This document shows positions 803-10,054 of a stretch of 10,861 nt of DNA, in pieces. Origin of the DNA: Chlorobiota bacterium. Its GTDB lineage: Bacteria > Bacteroidota > Bacteroidia > Bacteroidales > F082. Positions within the stretch are counted from its first letter, which is position 1; every line of letters begins with the position of its first letter. The notes beneath the pieces are model-generated. The model saw only the letters and a program-made list of their open reading frames with translations. It did not search any database and was not told the origin of the DNA. The translations under genes were made by a program, and so were the position numbers. The stretch lies in contig JAUXBM010000027.1 of the NCBI GenBank assembly GCA_030619415.1, positions 1 to 10,861 of the forward strand, read 5' to 3'.

Positions 803-2206
803 ATGTCGGCAAAGCAGAGGACTATTAAAAAGCCAGTAACTGTGGCTGGTGCAGGATTGCATACCGGGCAGGTCGGCAAAATGACTTTCCTCCCTGCCCC
901 TGAATATCATGGCATCAAGTTCAAAAGAACAGATGTTGAGTCACAACCTGTTATAGAAGCAGATATAGACCATGTTGTGAGTACAGACAGGGGAACAACT
1001 ATCGGGATTAAAGGAACACATATTTATACCATTGAACATGTACTGGCAGCACTGATGGGCATGGGAATTGACAATGCCCTCATTGAAATTGACATGGAGG
1101 AAATCCCGATTAAGGACGGGTCTTCAAAATATTTTGTTGAAGCCTTGAAAAAGGCCGGAATTCAGGAACAAAGTGCGCCGAGGGAATATCTTACGATTAA
1201 AGAAAGAATTGAATTTGAAATTCCTGATAAAAAAGTAAAAATTATCGCTGAACCTGCTGATGAATTTTCCATAGAGGTTATCATTGATTTCGAAACAAAA
1301 GTGTTGGGCGAACAGAAAGCCGAACTTCAAAATATTGAGAATTTCACAAAGGAGATATCCGGGTGCAGAACGTTTGTGTTTCTGCACGAGTTGGAGTACC
1401 TATTAAGCAATAACCTGATCAAGGGCGGCGACCTGAGCAATGCCATCGTTTTCGTAAACAGGAAAGTAGAGCAGGATGAACTTGACCGTCTGGCCGATCT
1501 TTTTGATCAACCGCGGGTTCAGGTGAAAAGTGAAGGTATATTAAATAACCTCGATCTGTATTTTGAAAACGAACCGGCAAGGCATAAATTGCTTGATGTA
1601 ATTGGTGATCTTGCACTTCTTGGAAAACAAATCAAGGGCCACATTACTGCATACCGACCTGGCCATCACACGAACACCGAGTTTGCTAAAATTCTGAAAA
1701 AATACGATAACAATAATAGAGCTATGAGTATGAAACCACCTTTTGATATCTATACAGATCCTGTATATAATATCAATCAAATCAGGAAATTACTTCCGCA
1801 CAGGCCTCCCTTTTTATTGGTCGACAAAGTACTCGACGTCACCGACAAATATATTGTTGCAGTTAAGAATGTCACGATGAACGAACCGTTCTTTGTTGGT
1901 CATTTCCCTGACGAACCATTGATGCCGGGTGTACTTCTCGTGGAAGCCATGGTTCAGGCGGGTGGTATATTTGTGTTGCATCAACTCCCTGACCCGGAGC
2001 AGTATTCCACTTATTTTCTAAAGATTAACGAAGCCAGATTCAGACAAAAAGTTGTACCTGGTGATGTAATTGTTTTTGTGGTGGAATTGGCCGCACCAAT
2101 TAAACGTGGTATTTGCTCAATGAAAGGCAAAGCCTATGTGAATGACAAACTCGTAATGGACGGCAAGATGACAGCACAAATCACAAAAAACAAAGAAAAA
2201 ACGTAA
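803..2206 (+). CDS. lpxC/fabZ: Bifunctional UDP-3-O-acyl-N-acetylglucosamine deacetylase / (3R)-hydroxyacyl-ACP dehydratase (LpxC-FabZ fusion)
   Basis: This is a 467-residue two-enzyme fusion. Residues 1 to about 305 are LpxC, the zinc deacetylase that commits the cell to lipid A. EH at 78-79 gives the catalytic Glu and first zinc His. RHKLLDVIGDL supplies zinc ligands H261 and D265, and PGHHTN holds the catalytic His (H288). Residues about 317-460 are FabZ, which dehydrates 3-hydroxyacyl-ACP during fatty acid elongation. Its signatures are LLPHRPPFLLVD and GHFPDEPLMPG, with catalytic H367 and E381. Only about a dozen residues link the domains. The two activities compete for the same precursor branch: FabZ consumes (3R)-hydroxyacyl-ACP, while LpxA and LpxD need it. 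The fusion is common in Bacteroidota. The ATG lies in the promoter's expected leader without a clear Shine-Dalgarno site, as is usual there. The stop is 1 nt before lpxA. All expected active-site residues are present. Confidence 0.97.
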   Translation: MSAKQRTIKKPVTVAGAGLHTGQVGKMTFLPAPEYHGIKFKRTDVESQPVIEADIDHVVSTDRGTTIGIKGTHIYTIEHVLAALMGMGIDNALIEIDMEEIPIKDGSSKYFVEALKKAGIQEQSAPREYLTIKERIEFEIPDKKVKIIAEPADEFSIEVIIDFETKVLGEQKAELQNIENFTKEISGCRTFVFLHELEYLLSNNLIKGGDLSNAIVFVNRKVEQDELDRLADLFDQPRVQVKSEGILNNLDLYFENEPARHKLLDVIGDLALLGKQIKGHITAYRPGHHTNTEFAKILKKYDNNNRAMSMKPPFDIYTDPVYNINQIRKLLPHRPPFLLVDKVLDVTDKYIVAVKNVTMNEPFFVGHFPDEPLMPGVLLVEAMVQAGGIFVLHQLPDPEQYSTYFLKINEARFRQKVVPGDVIVFVVELAAPIKRGICSMKGKAYVNDKLVMDGKMTAQITKNKEKT

Positions 2207-3605: not shown

Positions 3606-4535
3606 ATGGATTTCTATCGCCCTTTTGAGGTAAATGAAATTGCAGCGCTAATAGATGGCAAAGTACTTGGCAATATTAATGGCCAATGCACCGGCCTGAA
3701 CGAACTGCATGTAGTGCGGCCAGGGGACCTTACTTTTGTTGACCACCCAAAATATTATAGTAAAGTCCTGGATTCTGAAGCTACCTTTATTCTGATTAAT
3801 AAAGAAGTAGAGGCTCCTGAAGGAAAAACACTGATCTATCATGACAATCCGTTTGATGCATTTATAATACTAATCAATCATTTCAGACCATTTACGGCAA
3901 GCACACAATTGGTTAGCCAATCGGCCAAAATTGGAGAAGGCAGCATCATTCAACCAGGCGCTTTTATTGGAAATAATGTAAAGATTGGAAAAAACTGCCT
4001 CATCCATGCCAATGCCAGCATTTACGATCATGTTCAGATTGGTGACAATGTCATTATCCATTCTGGTTCTGTGATTGGCAGCGATGGCTATTATTTTCAG
4101 AAGCGCAAGGATGGCATGGTGAAATTTCAGTCGGGTGGAAGGGTAGTCATTGAGGATGATGTTGAGATTGGCGCATCTTGTTCGATTGACAAAGGCGTTA
4201 CGGGTGACACCATTATTGGAAAAGGCACTAAAATGGATAATCAGTGCCAGGTTGGTCATGATACAGTGATCGGGAAAAACTGCCTGATCGGCGCATTCGC
4301 CGCGATTGCAGGAGTTACATGTATTGAAGATGACGTTATATTATGGGCAAGGGTATCAATCAATAAAGACATTGTTGTTGGAAAAGGAACTGTACTTATG
4401 GCTACAGCCGGTTTAGATAAATCAGTAAAAGGCGGACAGGTATTGATGGGTGCTCCGGCAATAGATGTGCGAAAATACTGGAGGCAGTATGTTGCCGTTA
4501 AAAATTTACCCGATCTGCTTAAGAAAATAAAATAG
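3606..4535 (+). CDS. Second LpxD-like N-acyltransferase, diverged paralogue
   Basis: This 309-residue protein has full LpxD architecture: an N-terminal uridine-binding-type domain (about 5-95, FEVNEIAALIDGKV and PGDLTFVDHPKYY) and a left-handed beta-helix (about 103-285). VGHDTVIG keeps the catalytic histidine (H218). Several LpxD landmarks differ from the copy at the left edge: DGFGFAP is DGYYFQK (160-166), IDRA is IDKG (194-197), and the second conserved His falls at D255 in my hand alignment. It is also shorter than the usual 340 or so residues and lacks the long charged C-terminal helix. It may acylate a different sugar nucleotide, use a different acyl-ACP, or be a less active second LpxD. 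Bacteroidota often carry such a gene right after efp, so it is probably conserved. The ATG is 3 nt past the efp stop. I leave the symbol blank because the true substrate is unclear. Confidence 0.85.
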   Translation: MDFYRPFEVNEIAALIDGKVLGNINGQCTGLNELHVVRPGDLTFVDHPKYYSKVLDSEATFILINKEVEAPEGKTLIYHDNPFDAFIILINHFRPFTASTQLVSQSAKIGEGSIIQPGAFIGNNVKIGKNCLIHANASIYDHVQIGDNVIIHSGSVIGSDGYYFQKRKDGMVKFQSGGRVVIEDDVEIGASCSIDKGVTGDTIIGKGTKMDNQCQVGHDTVIGKNCLIGAFAAIAGVTCIEDDVILWARVSINKDIVVGKGTVLMATAGLDKSVKGGQVLMGAPAIDVRKYWRQYVAVKNLPDLLKKIK

Positions 4536-4548
4536 GATAACCTCTATT
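4531..4548. terminator. Weak palindrome spanning the two convergent stop codons
   Basis: AATAG (4531-4535) and CTATT (4544-4548) form a 5-bp stem around an 8-nt loop. The plus-strand stop TAG (4533-4535) and the minus-strand stop (TAG read from 4546-4544) lie within opposite arms. The stem is short and A+T-rich, and no T-run follows on either strand. It could be a weak bidirectional end point between convergent operons separated by only 8 nt, or chance. Confidence 0.2.
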
Positions 4549-5977
4549 CGGAAACCTGGTCAGGTTCGTCCAGATGATACACATCCAATGCAACAATTAT
4601 TGCGATAAAGCCCCAGAAAGGTACTGAAAGTTTATCCGTATCCAAAAAGTTATTCAACAGTCCATGCGTAAAATAGGTGATTAAACCCAGGGTCACCATC
4701 AGACTTAAAAATTTAACCTCTGTATTTCCTCTTTTATATACTCTTAAACCTGTATAAATCACATAGATCAGCAGTAGAATCACGATCAGCATTCCGGGAA
4801 TACCCATTTCTGAAAGGGGGCCGAGATATTCGCTGTGCGCATTGCCCTTGTCACCCAGGTTGGTACTAATAATGGTTTTTTCCTTCGCCATTTGATATGG
4901 AGCATACACAAACTGGTAGGTACCTGGCCCCCAACCTAATATAGGTCTTTCCTGATTAAGCCTGATTGCAGCCTGCCACCTGTTTATGCGCTCAAGGTTT
5001 GAGGCATCGGAAGTAATATTCGATATCGACTGAACATGTTCCACAAAATTAGCAGACGAATCCTGTTTATTCTTTTCTAACCTGTCAAGGATTTGCTGTT
5101 GAAATAAGGCGAATGTGCCAAAGAATAAAACAACAAACAACGCTACCCAATAAAACTTGATCCTCAGCATAACAATCAGAAATACAACAAATGCGCCAAT
5201 AACACTTATCCAGGCAGCCCGGCCATATGATAGTATTATCCCAACGATCATAATTACAAGTACAACGACAGCAAAAAACCGTGCCCGGGAAGTGATTCCA
5301 GGATAAAAAATAAATCCTGCAATAACCGGGAAGAACATTGCAAGGGCTGCCCCGTAAGCTGTGTGGTCATTATAAAACGGAGACATTACCCAGTGGCCGG
5401 CTTCTTCTTCAAACCCATACTTTGAATGTTGTATTAAAGTGTATAAAACAACCATCGATAGCGCAATGAGATAAAGCCACAGGAATTTTTTAATGTTGTC
5501 GATATTTTTAAATAAAATGACTGCAGCGAAATAAAACGGGATAACAAACCACAAGCGCGACAATAGATATTTTAGAGAAACGATCGGTAATTCGCTGGTC
5601 AAAGATGTGAGCATCATCCAGAACAATCCAATAAATATTACGTAAGAAATTGGATGTATTGTGACCCGTTTGTCGTAATTATTCTCAAAAATCAGGTTAG
5701 CCAGAAATATAAGTAACACGCCAAACATCAATGGTTCTGTAGGTAACGACACGCCCAGCCCCATCTCCATATCGGAAATATTGACTGCCAATGGCGTTAG
5801 AAAAGTGATGAACAGGATAATCTTATCGAGTGAAACAAGATAATAGTAGAAGACGATCAGCGCCACCGGTAATAGAAAGAACCAATAAATATCCTTTTCA
5901 AGAATCAAATAGAAATTTACCACAAGAAAAAGTGCGGTAAGTCCATAAACCCATACTATTTTGATTCTTTCTGTCAA
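4544..5977 (-). CDS. O-antigen polymerase/ligase family membrane protein (Wzy/WaaL-like)
   Basis: This inner-membrane protein (477 residues from the chosen start) has about 11-12 hydrophobic segments. A large periplasmic loop lies before the last membrane segments, the layout of the Wzy_C family. Landmarks are SYGRAAW (250-256), ERINRW (329-334), LGWGPGTY (347-354) and NAHSEYL (379-385). The last corresponds to the H-[NS]-x-x-L region that, with loop arginines, is needed for polymerase or ligase activity. Such proteins either polymerise undecaprenyl-linked repeat units (Wzy) or transfer finished glycan to lipid A core (WaaL); sequence alone does not separate them. The frame contains no ATG near its 5' end. 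A TTG at 6050-6052 would overlap the upstream gene by 50 nt, so I prefer the TTG at 5975-5977 (MTERIKIVWVYG). That leaves a 25-nt gap after the chain-length gene, suggesting co-transcription. It converges on the lipid A operon with an 8-nt gap. Confidence 0.85.
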   Translation of the reverse strand: MTERIKIVWVYGLTALFLVVNFYLILEKDIYWFFLLPVALIVFYYYLVSLDKIILFITFLTPLAVNISDMEMGLGVSLPTEPLMFGVLLIFLANLIFENNYDKRVTIHPISYVIFIGLFWMMLTSLTSELPIVSLKYLLSRLWFVIPFYFAAVILFKNIDNIKKFLWLYLIALSMVVLYTLIQHSKYGFEEEAGHWVMSPFYNDHTAYGAALAMFFPVIAGFIFYPGITSRARFFAVVVLVIMIVGIILSYGRAAWISVIGAFVVFLIVMLRIKFYWVALFVVLFFGTFALFQQQILDRLEKNKQDSSANFVEHVQSISNITSDASNLERINRWQAAIRLNQERPILGWGPGTYQFVYAPYQMAKEKTIISTNLGDKGNAHSEYLGPLSEMGIPGMLIVILLLIYVIYTGLRVYKRGNTEVKFLSLMVTLGLITYFTHGLLNNFLDTDKLSVPFWGFIAIIVALDVYHLDEPDQVSE

Positions 5978-6002: not shown

Positions 6003-8237
6003 TTATCGTACCAATTTTCTTTTTTCAAGAAACAGAATGACAAGCATGGCAAATACCAGGGCGGCCAATGTCACTACAACAACGATCAACCAGCGAATGG
6101 GATAACTTTTTTTATCAGAAGCAAACGGATAGGTAACAATATTGGTGTAGGTCATTTCGGCATCCAGGAATCGTATGGCCATTTCATAATCGAGTTTCAC
6201 CTCTACATATGTCCGCGATTCATCCTGAATCATCTGAACAACTTCGATTAATTGCCCACTTTTATTTTTCATGCTTTCCAGTAACCTTTCAACTTCTTTG
6301 GTGTTGATCTGGCTTCCATTTTGTCCCATAACCGTCTTTAAATAACCCCTCATGATTTCCTGTGATTGGAACTCATATTCAAATATACCATACTCAGTTC
6401 CCAGCTCAATCATAACCTGTTTTAGCGAATCTAGATAGGCCCGCTTTTTAGTCAACTGTTTTTCGTACATGTCAGCAACCTCGACGTATTTACTTTTATG
6501 TAAACGTGCGACTTTCATATTGTAAAATTCCAGAATTGCATTTACCATCTGCATCGCTGTATCAGGGCTTTTATCATTTACTTCAATCATCACCGACTCA
6601 AAAAGTGTTTTACCAACACTTACGTTCTGATGATATTCGTAAAACAATACCGTTTTAAAGTATTTGTAGTTTTTGTCGATTTCGTAGTGGGTGGCCAAAT
6701 CAAACCTGTTTATTACACTATCAACAATATCTTGCGAATTAATGATCTGCAACATCTGCTCGGTTTCACTCTCTTCTGAATAAGAATCCACATTGGCAGG
6801 ATAAGCAATAGCATATGATTTAAACATCGGTGTGATGAAAGCAGGCCCTGAAAAAATTGCTGCAAAAAGAGCCGCCACTGCTATAATGATTAGTAAATGG
6901 TACTTCCATTTCCAAACCAGGTTTAGCAAATTTGAACTATTAAAAAAACTGTCCATCTCTATATTTTTATGTTCTCTTTTAACTTCTTTTCTGGTTTCTG
7001 TTGGTGTTATCTGATGTTGATCCAAAACTACTTTTACTTCTTTATTTCCTTCGGTCTCTTTCTGTTCTACTTTTTTTGATTCTACCGTTGTTACTTTAGT
7101 TTCTTTCTTAGGTTCATCTTTCAGTGTAACGGGTAAAGGTTTGCGCTCTTCATACTTATGGTTAAAAACAATCTCTTTTGCCCTTTTTCCTATATCAATA
7201 CTTTTTTTTTTAACCTCAAAGCTCATGCGGCCCGTCGAAACTTCGAAAGCCCCAAAAAGCACTATCGCTAAGAACAACGCTGAAAAAGTAGTTATTATGA
7301 CAATTATCCAACGGATGGGGTATGACTTTTTCTCGGCTTTGTATGCATTACTAACAATAAATTTATGCGGAAGACTTTCGGTTGCATCCACTTTGGCCTC
7401 GTCGTACCTGGCTTTTATTTTGCTCAGTTGTTTTTTATCGTGCTCCAGCGCATCGCGTAATGACACATAAGGTCCACCATATTTTGCAAGTATCTCAAGT
7501 TTTTTTTCAAGCCTTCTGATACCAGCTGTATTCCCATTGGCCATCTCAATTGCAAGCTGCCTGTTGAACATTTCAGACTGGCTTTCATAATCATGTACTC
7601 CAAATTCTCTCAGAACGGTCAACGAATCTTCTTTTAGCTGTACTTCAGCTTTTAAGGCATTGTATTCAGTTTTCACAATTCGGAACGCTTTTACAGCAAC
7701 CTCTTTTTGCATCTGGTTTATGGTTGAGTCAACCAGTTCAGCGATGTCGTTGGCCATATCCGCAGCCAATTGTGCATCTTTATCGTAAACTGTTATCTGT
7801 ACGGCCATAAATTCAGTTCGCCGGAACCTGAAGTTATCATCATACATCTTGAACAACTTTGTCATTTTATACTTCGACTCAGTCGAAATATTATAATGTT
7901 CCAATAGGTTGTAATTGCGGATAACCTTGTCGCGTATCTTATTGGAATTAAGAACCTGCAACATTTGCTCGGTTTGTTCCTCTTCTCCAAACTCCAGAAT
8001 ATCTTTGGTGTTACCAAAACTCTCAGCCAGCAATGCTTTCGAAATAGATTTACTGGCAGTAGGGTACAAAATCACGATGGACTTGTACAAAGGAGTAATA
8101 AAATAAGGAGATGAGAAGATAGCAGAAAAAATAATAGCTATGATTCCAATGCTCAGTAAGTGCTTTTTGTACTTAACAACAATTTGCATAAACACCCCAG
8201 AAGAATAAGGCTTATTGGATTGATTTTGAACTTCCAT
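6003..8237 (-). CDS. Tandem double Wzz-type chain-length determinant protein
   Basis: The 744 residues contain two complete Wzz/polysaccharide co-polymerase units. Unit 1 has a membrane segment at about 26-46, a periplasmic domain with coiled-coil-rich helices, and a second membrane segment at about 309-331. Unit 2 has membrane segments at about 447-465 and 716-737. Matching landmarks are FITPLYKS (46-53) and FITPMFKS (467-474), TEQMLQVLNS (89-98) and TEQMLQIINS (492-501), and KKSYPIRW (303-310 and 709-716). Unit 2 lacks about 17 residues before TEQMLQ. The units are joined by a Lys/Glu-rich linker (about 335-435) that topology places in the cytoplasm. Wzz proteins set the modal length of Wzy-made polysaccharide, normally as oligomers of single units of about 300-380 residues. 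No Walker motifs or tyrosine-kinase domain are present. M428, followed by SFFNSS-type sequence, looks like a relic start of a once separate gene. A strong promoter lies just upstream. Confidence 0.88.
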   Translation of the reverse strand: MEVQNQSNKPYSSGVFMQIVVKYKKHLLSIGIIAIIFSAIFSSPYFITPLYKSIVILYPTASKSISKALLAESFGNTKDILEFGEEEQTEQMLQVLNSNKIRDKVIRNYNLLEHYNISTESKYKMTKLFKMYDDNFRFRRTEFMAVQITVYDKDAQLAADMANDIAELVDSTINQMQKEVAVKAFRIVKTEYNALKAEVQLKEDSLTVLREFGVHDYESQSEMFNRQLAIEMANGNTAGIRRLEKKLEILAKYGGPYVSLRDALEHDKKQLSKIKARYDEAKVDATESLPHKFIVSNAYKAEKKSYPIRWIIVIITTFSALFLAIVLFGAFEVSTGRMSFEVKKKSIDIGKRAKEIVFNHKYEERKPLPVTLKDEPKKETKVTTVESKKVEQKETEGNKEVKVVLDQHQITPTETRKEVKREHKNIEMDSFFNSSNLLNLVWKWKYHLLIIIAVAALFAAIFSGPAFITPMFKSYAIAYPANVDSYSEESETEQMLQIINSQDIVDSVINRFDLATHYEIDKNYKYFKTVLFYEYHQNVSVGKTLFESVMIEVNDKSPDTAMQMVNAILEFYNMKVARLHKSKYVEVADMYEKQLTKKRAYLDSLKQVMIELGTEYGIFEYEFQSQEIMRGYLKTVMGQNGSQINTKEVERLLESMKNKSGQLIEVVQMIQDESRTYVEVKLDYEMAIRFLDAEMTYTNIVTYPFASDKKSYPIRWLIVVVVTLAALVFAMLVILFLEKRKLVR

Positions 8238-8407: not shown

Positions 8408-9895
8408 CTATATCTGAGTCCCTTTCAGTATTGAAATAAATTGCTTCACATTCAACAACCTGAACAAAAAAGCAATAAGCAAACCGATCACAACCATCGC
8501 CCCCATTGATACCATCCAGTTCGAAAATTGCAAATACTGAATTATTAAACCAACACCTACAATTAAGCCGATCGTTGCAAACAAACTAAATAAAAACCCA
8601 CCATCGACTTTTAATTTGAATACCCTGTACACCAGAATTATTTGCAAGATGGCGGTCAGGCTTTGTGTCGATAAACTGGCAATGGCCGATCCAAAAGCGT
8701 AAAATTGAGGAATAAGAATAAAATTCAGTAAAATATTACAGATCAATCCTGCTAAGGCCACAAGATTCAAATATTTTAAGTTGTTATTTGCCGTTAGAAG
8801 CGTTCCAAAAATATAATTCGATGATACAGCTACAAAGCTAAACATCAATAGATTGAAGATGCGAACTGATTCCTGGATACGACCTAAATACTCCTGTGTT
8901 GTCTCTCCGGAAAATTGCGTGTACATCAACAGCATTAGCTCTTCTCCATAAAAAACAGAGGTAATCGCTATGATAAGAGAGCCCGTAATAATAATTGAAA
9001 ATGACAGTTTCAATAGATGAATTACCGACTGTTTCTCTTTGATCATTTTTGCGAACAATGGTAATAGAAGTATAGAAAAAAGAAAGGTAAAATTTTGTCC
9101 CGCATCGAGCAACCTGAACGCCTGGGCATATATTCCTGCTTGCTGGGCTCCAACATCCTGCGGTAATAATCGTTCGATAAGCACAGGATCAATGCGGTTG
9201 TAAAAACTCATCAACAGAACAAGCAAGGCAAATGGCATACTTTTTTTAAGGATCATCAGGAAAAATGGCAGGTTCCATTTCAGTTTTAACTTGCCGGATT
9301 TTTGCAATACAGCGAATAAGGCCACAATAGCCGTTAGTGAATAAGCCAGCGTTTGGGCATAGACGAACCATTCGATTGAGAAATATCCACCGAATAAATT
9401 TGTCCAGAGAAGTACTGCACAAATCGCAATCATTAAGGTGCGGTCAAGGACAGATATCAGGCTATCTGTTTTAAAAAGCAGCAAACCCGATAAATTTGAA
9501 CGTAGGTAAAGAATAAAAGACAAAATAAATTGATTAAATCCCACCCAGGCAAGCAAATACAATTGTCTTCCTTCGTATCCAATCATAAGTCCAAAAGCAA
9601 AAATGACAATGGCGTACAAAAACCCCAGTAATAGTTTTAGCGTGCCAATACTGGCCAGGTGTTTATTTAAAAGCTGATTATGCCGGGCAATATTTCGGTT
9701 GTTGAAGTTGGTAATACCCAGGTCGAGGAAAATAAAAAACAGGAAAGAGAAATTAAAAATGGCAAAATAAAAACCATATTCTTCAGGGCCAACCACGTTC
9801 TGAACTTCACGGTCGATGCCGAATATCCAGAAGGGCTTTACCAGCAGGTTAACAATGATGAGTAACGCAAGGTTTTTCAGGAATTTCTTTTGCAT
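8408..9895 (-). CDS. Polysaccharide flippase, MOP/PST family (Wzx-like)
   Basis: This polytopic inner-membrane protein (495 residues from the chosen start) has about 12-14 hydrophobic segments, as in the MOP-superfamily polysaccharide transporters that flip undecaprenyl-diphosphate-linked oligosaccharides to the periplasm. Supporting features are the N-terminal GPEEYGFYFAIFNFS segment (about 36-50), the charged NRIDPVLIERLL stretch in the middle (about 233-244) and GIYAQAFRLLDA (about 254-265). All three are common in PST flippases. An ATG 28 codons further upstream (9977-9979) is in frame. I prefer the one at 9893-9895 (MQKKFLKNLALL) because the extension is polar, does not look like family sequence, and contains the promoter box. 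It is transcribed toward the chain-length and ligase genes, giving flippase, length regulator and polymerase or ligase in a row. It could export O-antigen, capsule or exopolysaccharide repeats; the cargo cannot be told from sequence. Confidence 0.87.
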   Translation of the reverse strand: MQKKFLKNLALLIIVNLLVKPFWIFGIDREVQNVVGPEEYGFYFAIFNFSFLFFIFLDLGITNFNNRNIARHNQLLNKHLASIGTLKLLLGFLYAIVIFAFGLMIGYEGRQLYLLAWVGFNQFILSFILYLRSNLSGLLLFKTDSLISVLDRTLMIAICAVLLWTNLFGGYFSIEWFVYAQTLAYSLTAIVALFAVLQKSGKLKLKWNLPFFLMILKKSMPFALLVLLMSFYNRIDPVLIERLLPQDVGAQQAGIYAQAFRLLDAGQNFTFLFSILLLPLFAKMIKEKQSVIHLLKLSFSIIITGSLIIAITSVFYGEELMLLMYTQFSGETTQEYLGRIQESVRIFNLLMFSFVAVSSNYIFGTLLTANNNLKYLNLVALAGLICNILLNFILIPQFYAFGSAIASLSTQSLTAILQIILVYRVFKLKVDGGFLFSLFATIGLIVGVGLIIQYLQFSNWMVSMGAMVVIGLLIAFLFRLLNVKQFISILKGTQI

Positions 9896-9901
9896 CGGGC
9901 G

Positions 9902-9931
9902 CAAAGGTAGCCAGTTTTGGTCATCAGCAAA
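9902..9931 (-). promoter_or_regulatory. Promoter abutting the flippase start codon
   Basis: On the minus strand, TACCTTTG (9909-9902) is a perfect TAnnTTTG -7 box, with TTTG (9931-9928) 18 nt upstream, one short of the usual 19-21. Only six nt separate the -7 box from the ATG at 9895. Transcription should therefore begin at or within a few bases of the start codon, giving a leaderless or near-leaderless mRNA. This box also argues against the upstream in-frame ATG at 9979. Confidence 0.6.
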
Positions 9932-10054
9932 TTCGGTTACTGCAAACAACAAATAGAAGTTTTGAATCTGAGTTTCCATGTTCCATCATATAACTGTGGG
10001 TTTGGTTTCATGTAAGTTAAACTGAATTTTTCTGCATATTTGTTCATAATTAAT

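Follow-up and report, generated by a model that had tools for sequence, protein, structure and literature searches.

Polysaccharide co-polymerases of the Wzz type are known as proteins with one unit per chain, and, to our knowledge, few cellular bacterial genes have proven and conserved recoding. Known Wzz proteins are described as homo-oligomers, and in the WzzE octamer neighbouring subunits alternate between two states of the L4 loop, with a subunit pair as the repeat of the ring (C4) (PMC10397196). Recoding that yields a full-length and a shortened protein from the same start is known from dnaX (tau and gamma) of E. coli and Thermus thermophilus. The roles of frame 0 and the shifted frame are swapped between the two species, and the Thermus gene relies on slippage by RNA polymerase, both other frames being closed by stops (PMC5009743). 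In tssM1 of Citrobacter rodentium, slippage at an A11 run just before a stop codon yields a membrane protein in two lengths, short and full; both are required, and so is the ratio between them (PMC4256274). Here, we analysed 10,861 nucleotides (the window) from an assembly labelled Chlorobiota bacterium (GCA_030619415.1, contig JAUXBM010000027.1), in which one gene encodes two Wzz-type units in a single chain, and we propose that the joint between these units is probably a site of recoding.

The proposed system would resemble dnaX in that a single start serves both a long and a shortened protein, and in that the frames swap roles between relatives. It would differ in that what the longer protein gains is another homologous unit and not a different domain, and in that one genus apparently uses a +1 site. 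Slippage in tssM1 restores one interrupted domain, and the abstract names one other species (PMC4256274), whereas here a whole second unit would be added and the site recurs in many genera. With WzzB, WzzE and FepE the window gene has in common the Pfam Wzz match, the fold, two membrane-type helices per unit and the wzx and wzy neighbours, but it holds two diverged units in one chain; the two states of WzzE are adopted by one sequence, whereas the pair in the window consists of two sequences that are covalently linked. The closest likeness to the +1 site is the influenza A PA-X site UCC_UUU_CGU (PMC3498833), which has UUU followed by CGN and a +1 direction as in the genus labelled g14, although the g14 site lies in a bacterial cellular gene and is known from sequence. 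Recoding of a Wzz gene is unreported among the literature matches listed by title or abstract start, and the main text of the frameshift catalogue PMC3711429 does not contain 'Wzz', 'polysaccharide' or 'chain length'. What is probably new here is a co-polymerase made by dnaX-like recoding.

The joint between the two units

The window gene is a single open reading frame (ORF) for 744 amino acids, and Pfam Wzz (PF02706) matches two stretches of its protein (E 6.6e-8; 33.2 bits against a cut-off of 25.5), in agreement with the two Wzz-type units of an initial annotation; the shared motifs that it listed (FITPxxKS, TEQMLQ and KKSYPIRW) are all present in both units of the translation. Unit 1 (residues 1-360) and unit 2 (411-744) align by BLAST with 31% identity over 305 columns (E 2e-43), and the roughly 17 residues said to be lacking before TEQMLQ in unit 2 come to 18 in this alignment. 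AlphaFold2, given a 78-sequence alignment, predicts two co-polymerase-like units with an N- and a C-terminal helix each and a disordered linker between them at 337-435; the helices are taken as membrane segments, which gives each unit the two that had been annotated. The one-chain model has a mean pLDDT of 77.7 and a pTM of 0.40 and is uninformative on ring arrangement. With Foldseek and VIA-align it matches the solved co-polymerases WzzE, KpsE, Wzc and WzzB, and the predicted fold has the periplasmic-type coiled domain between two membrane helices that is expected of a co-polymerase. A PDB sequence search with the alignment of relatives gave no match, and no kinase domain was found in the 744-residue protein with Pfam or NCBIfam at E values up to 1, which argues against a kinase-bearing, Wzc-type protein.

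The window is the whole of contig C95 of a genome bin that is 56% complete. A one-off misassembly is rejected as the source of the join, given that there are many full-length relatives and that the comparison of gene structures which the annotation had suggested gave another 16 fused loci at the nucleotide level. Leaving aside the window's own protein, the 76 best-matching database proteins share 57-72% identity with it (best 120 of 312 matches listed; 78 fused proteins aligned). The earlier view that the units diverged from old adjacent paralogues and are no artefact is upheld.

Matches at an E value of 1e-20 occur in 158 of the 173 genomes of the window's family. Outside g14 there were 73 matching genomes, and loci were fetched from 66 of them (the window's own included), with seven genomes of genus g2, each matching once, left out; genomes from other families of the order were also fetched and give five of the 91 two-unit loci. 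The source organisms of the relatives are uncultured, and for some of the loci public records carry the label Bacteroidales, Bacteroidetes, Bacteroidia, Marinilabiliales or Chlorobiota. Among 114 loci, window included, 17 carry the units in one ORF and 74 in two adjacent ORFs, unit 1 then unit 2, while the remaining 23, with one unit or none, were excluded from the counts. The covalent pair that was annotated is thus real in the window, but the join is not fixed, as most loci that were read consist of two ORFs, and the annotation had missed the slippery A10 run at the joint.

This run lies directly after the second membrane-type helix of unit 1 and is the sole A or T run of at least 9 in the window. 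There are 41 split loci that have unit 2 in the -1 frame with respect to unit 1 and an A9-A11 run no more than 20 codons before the unit 1 stop. From the run to the unit 2 methionine, the unit 2 frame contains 0 stops in 1841 codons, compared with 137/1814 in frame 0 and 288/1832 in the third frame; past the unit 1 stop only, the values are 0/1299 versus 336/2598 (30 loci with at least 30 nt there). The chance of such linker openness is about 10^-32 if genera are independent (longest linker per genus, 13 genera, g14 included), a value that is only a guide because genera share ancestry. Upstream, the unit 2 frame is closed by a stop that begins 1-2 nt before the run in 20 of the 41 loci and 6 nt before it in five more. 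Before the unit 2 methionine the open frame has no ATG in 36/41 loci and no ATG, GTG or TTG in 23/41, and in these 23, as regards common start codons, the linker could be translated only if the frame changes, most obviously at the run. Ordinary gene overlap with ATGA coupling is rejected, given that ATGA stands at the unit 1 stop in 1 of the 41 A-run loci (G041) and that the start-codon counts generally oppose it.

Five extra split loci outside the counts are all -1 with A10-A12, and one of them (L044) comes from a contig labelled 1402x coverage; the other 13 loci of that listing include 10 copies of counted loci, one that is fused without a run and one without a detected unit 1. An A9 or longer run was flagged in 53/60 family loci outside g14, and a 54th (G065) has A10 by direct reading. 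Outside the joint, runs of at least 9 A or T number 29 in 1.158 Mb, and coding-strand A runs number 4 in ORFs of at least 250 amino acids (any frame, approximately 1056 kb). The length stays at 9-11 while the codon phase of the run takes all three values. A plain fusion of paralogues, in which the lysine run is a positive-inside anchor with no coding role, would fit KKK just past the membrane-type helix in 66/77 anchored fused proteins and also genus g5, which is fused without the run. It does not explain the split loci, nor why KKK is spelled as nine A in 43/48 loci at the joint versus 2/60 elsewhere (Fisher P 5e-22) when AAA makes up only 64% of the lysine codons in these loci, and we regard it as extremely improbable. 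Judged by this codon usage, the A-run at the joint is under selection.

Downstream of the run, the 41 split loci have no extra RNA structure (mean z -0.05, 2 below -2), and the 13 fused loci with a run have a mean z of -0.66 (control mean -0.39, 4/78 below -2). Stem-loop-driven -1 ribosomal frameshifting is rejected because there is no structure signal past the A-run in split loci. Transcriptional slippage fits better, given this lack of structure and a run that occurs in all three phases. The run has at least 9 A inside coding sequence and is kept in homologues, as expected of slippage, and the joined-frame organisation is kept in non-identical homologues, the conservation of two frames joined at a run that PMC1088944 takes as its criterion. 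A Shine-Dalgarno-like string upstream of the unit 2 ATG was found in none of the 91 loci, where the region is A-rich like the linker and its composition uninformative.

Probably, then, the joint is a recoding site at which one gene gives both unit 1 alone and a covalent unit 1-unit 2 chain in the manner of dnaX, by A-run slippage or by a +1 shift. In most split loci unit 2 is kept in the -1 or +1 frame after a slippery sequence and an open linker, so that the covalent pair is probably made there as well; the window keeps the slippery A10, and its gene therefore probably makes unit 1 alone too.

A putative +1 site in genus g14 and TGA-parted loci

In g14, unit 2 lies in the +1 frame in 25 of the 26 two-unit loci. 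TTTTTTC stands in codon phase 0 in 24 of the 26, and in 23 of these 24 it reads TTT TTT CGN. From this site to the unit 2 methionine the +1 frame has 0/976 stops versus 50/952 and 56/952 in the other frames, and it is open upstream of the site too. RNA folding past the site gives a mild signal (mean z -1.32, 8/24 below -2, against the control given above). Hence, by sequence, g14 has the conserved UUU_C site and open +1 frame of programmed +1 frameshifting, and it appears to reach unit 2 by a +1 shift at UUU_UUU_CGN.

The g14 form bears on whether the split loci might in truth be in-frame fusions with one base missed in the run. Such homopolymer miscalls would account for nearly all splits outside g14 in the family being -1, as one missing A gives, and for one species that is seen both fused and split. 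A T6 run, all that the g14 form has, is unlikely to be miscalled, and g14 therefore argues against homopolymer error as the general explanation. The 41 loci also come from different genomes, their run lengths (9-11) overlap with those of fused loci (10-11), and split L044 lies on the deeply covered contig. We consider miscalls a very improbable explanation, and the conserved long A-run would remain even if they were the true one.

The five loci that belong to other families comprise G041, which is -1 with A9, and G048, G039, G056 and G049, which lack such a run. In L010 (G048) and L175 (G197), from two genera of another family, same-frame units are parted by one TGA; the first 27 bases past this TGA are identical in the two, and those immediately upstream of it show synonymous differences. 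UGA readthrough between the units of G048 and G197 is possible on this pattern, and a readthrough hairpin past the UGA is unsupported (z 0.7 and 0.1). L020 (G039) and L184 (G205), from another family, likewise have same-frame units with a single TGA between them and an open linker, but they are congeners and thus weak evidence.

Interchange of fused and split forms

On a quick tree of 94 rows that carries long-branch warnings, fused and split forms need at least 7 changes, and fused loci with the run lie among -1 loci in genera g1, g10, g12 and g13 (L181-L186, in which unit 1 was not detected, are absent from the tree, and L175 was entered as unit 1 only). In g12 the fused loci have A11 and the split loci A10; in g1 the fused loci have A10-A11 and the split locus A9. 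Thirteen fused loci, the window included, retain the run. In 12 of them the first -1-frame stop comes 0-6 codons past the run (P 0.070 against their own linkers), and in 11 the first +1-frame stop comes 1-7 codons past it (P 0.058). Such early out-of-frame stops suggest that the fused and split arrangements could yield one and the same pair of products and differ in which of the two is the default. One fused locus with A10 (L136 of G080, g13) has its out-of-frame stops far off (27 and 18 codons), unlike most others.

Run lengths that differ between fused and split loci in g12 and g1 would also be expected from DNA-level phase variation, in which replication slippage alters the A-run and switches cells between a fused protein and unit 1 only (or separate units). 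One species, by sequence identity, is fused in one assembly and split in another: P0081 (fused, 694 amino acids) and split G022 (L072) are 100% identical in unit 1 over 339 residues and 99.2% in unit 2 over 361. Contigs end within tens of bases past the A-run in G028 (L066/L067), G063 (L117) and G074 (L129 and L130), and the two G028 contigs overlap by 44 nt at the run, as if the assembly graph branched there. From P0081/G022 and these contig ends, the run may also vary in DNA. As the whole explanation, phase variation would require either a fused product from the split state or a very frequent return, given 0/1841 linker stops, and it leaves the +1 form of g14 unexplained, a T6 run being presumably too short for hypermutability. 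We therefore judge it unlikely as a substitute for recoding, although it may contribute too.

Another alternative is that two separate proteins are made, unit 2 being translated alone from its invariant methionine and the fused ORFs being incidental. The methionine is kept in 91/91 two-unit loci and in 78/78 aligned fused proteins (Met428 in the window), single-unit operons exist, and the loci of G015 and G118 look like plain separate gene pairs. This reading has very little probability, as it would explain neither the run nor a unit 2 frame that is free of stops all the way from the slippery site to the methionine.

Several of these observations nevertheless weigh against recoding at the joint as we propose it. 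The early out-of-frame stops in fused loci are a trend only, P0081 and G022 show one species in both states, and the invariance of Met428 means that unit 2 may also be started separately. G015 and G118 apart, the four g5 loci are fused without an A-run, and G178 has unit 2 at offset +1 with an A7 run. The g14 counts are based on 28 of the 85 genomes that matched, most of them taken from among the highest-ranked matches. The ratio of nonsynonymous to synonymous differences (pN/pS) in the linker is weak and mixed as evidence: it is 0.24-0.53 in g10, g12, g13, g15 and g6, with 1-3 pairs for each genus, and 0.72 in g14, with 18 pairs. In g8 (10 pairs) it reaches 1.44, and there selection seems to act on the frame-0 tail that overlaps the linker.

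The operon and its possible products

The features of the window gene and its neighbours are given in Table 1.

Table 1 Features of the two-unit Wzz-type gene and its flanking genes in the window.
Feature	Position	Strand	Remarks
Two-unit Wzz-type gene	6003..8237	-	744 aa; ATG start at 8237; stop codon 6003-6005
Unit 1, residues 1-342	7212..8237	-	N-terminal membrane-type helix, periplasmic-type coiled domain, C-terminal membrane-type helix
Slippery run A10 (AAA AAA AAA A), residues 343-346	7202..7211	-	Encodes KKK; T10 on + strand
TGA, -1 frame	7195..7197	-	Just past run; would end unit-1-only product after one added A
TAG, +1 frame	7190..7192	-	Three codons past run; would end unit-1-only product after one lost A
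Linker, to residue 427	6957..7201	-	Predicted disordered; sequence unconserved; frame 0 open
Met428 ATG (MDSFFNSS)	6954..6956	-	Invariant unit 2 start; possible internal start
Unit 2, residues 428-744	6006..6956	-	Wzz-type; without an 18-residue segment of unit 1
Wzx-type flippase, upstream	8408..9979	-	Pfam Polysacc_synt; synteny
Wzy-type polymerase/ligase, downstream	4544..5977	-	Pfam Wzy_C; probable start TTG at 5977, not 6052

The two units are flanked by wzx and wzy in 74/91 loci, the setting expected of a Wzz-type polysaccharide co-polymerase; 15 have wzy without a detected wzx, and in 2/91 wzy is absent from the fetched stretch. As a control for the frame held between the units, the frame from unit 2 to Wzy is unheld in the same operons (offsets 0, 1 and 2 in 46, 19 and 24 of 89 loci). 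Recoding between unit 2 and Wzy is rejected for this reason and because TTG or GTG stands at the start of most Wzy frames. In 75/89 loci the wzy frame lacks an ATG within 60 nt of the unit 2 stop; a TTG (often followed by ACNGA) or a GTG usually takes its place. The single-unit operons carry unit 2 only or a unit-1-like gene only, from which it follows that two units are not needed by all. Unit 2 stands alone between wzx and wzy in L087 (G006, a single-contig genome), L088 (G033) and L089 (G018). Elsewhere in the window there is an LpxC-FabZ fusion at 803-2206 (+) and a second LpxD-like gene adjoining efp at 3606-4535 (+), and many of the loci have the LpxD-like gene and efp on the downstream side of wzy.

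The mechanism that we propose is as follows. Units 1 and 2 would act as polysaccharide co-polymerase units in a wzx-wzz-wzy operon. In the window, frame 0 would be read as unit 1, linker and unit 2 in one chain, whereas RNA polymerase, by slipping at the A10 run, would leave some transcripts with one A too many or too few, on which the ribosome would stop within 4 codons and release unit 1 alone (about 347-348 amino acids). In most relatives that were read the roles would be swapped, frame 0 giving unit 1 alone and slippage into the -1 frame the covalent pair. A third product, unit 2 from Met428, is possible. The outcome would be a set ratio of single-unit and double-unit subunits fed to the co-polymerase ring, in which a covalent pair of unlike units could build in an alternation of neighbours that single units would dilute.

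The occurrence and level of slippage, the mixed rings and their effects on chain length are inferred from sequence. That the covalent pair is linked to the symmetry of the ring is a guess by analogy with WzzE, and that the ratio of products tunes sugar-chain length is likewise a guess. The wider proposal, which we make tentatively and at slightly less than even chances, is that recoding sets the make-up of the ring in this family of uncultured Bacteroidota (unit 1, the covalent pair and perhaps unit 2), that the slippage ratio sets the mixed rings and tunes chain length, and that the routes to these products (in-frame fusion, A-run slippage, +1 shift at UUU_CGN and perhaps UGA readthrough) have replaced each other repeatedly.

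Given that the same product seems to have been kept through changes of mechanism, the family would allow the purpose of recoding to be studied in a natural experiment. The covalent pair, whose units are unlike, and the single unit made with it at a set ratio would provide a handle on the arrangement of neighbouring Wzz subunits in the ring, and the system could be used to ask whether ring composition decides the length of the sugar chain.
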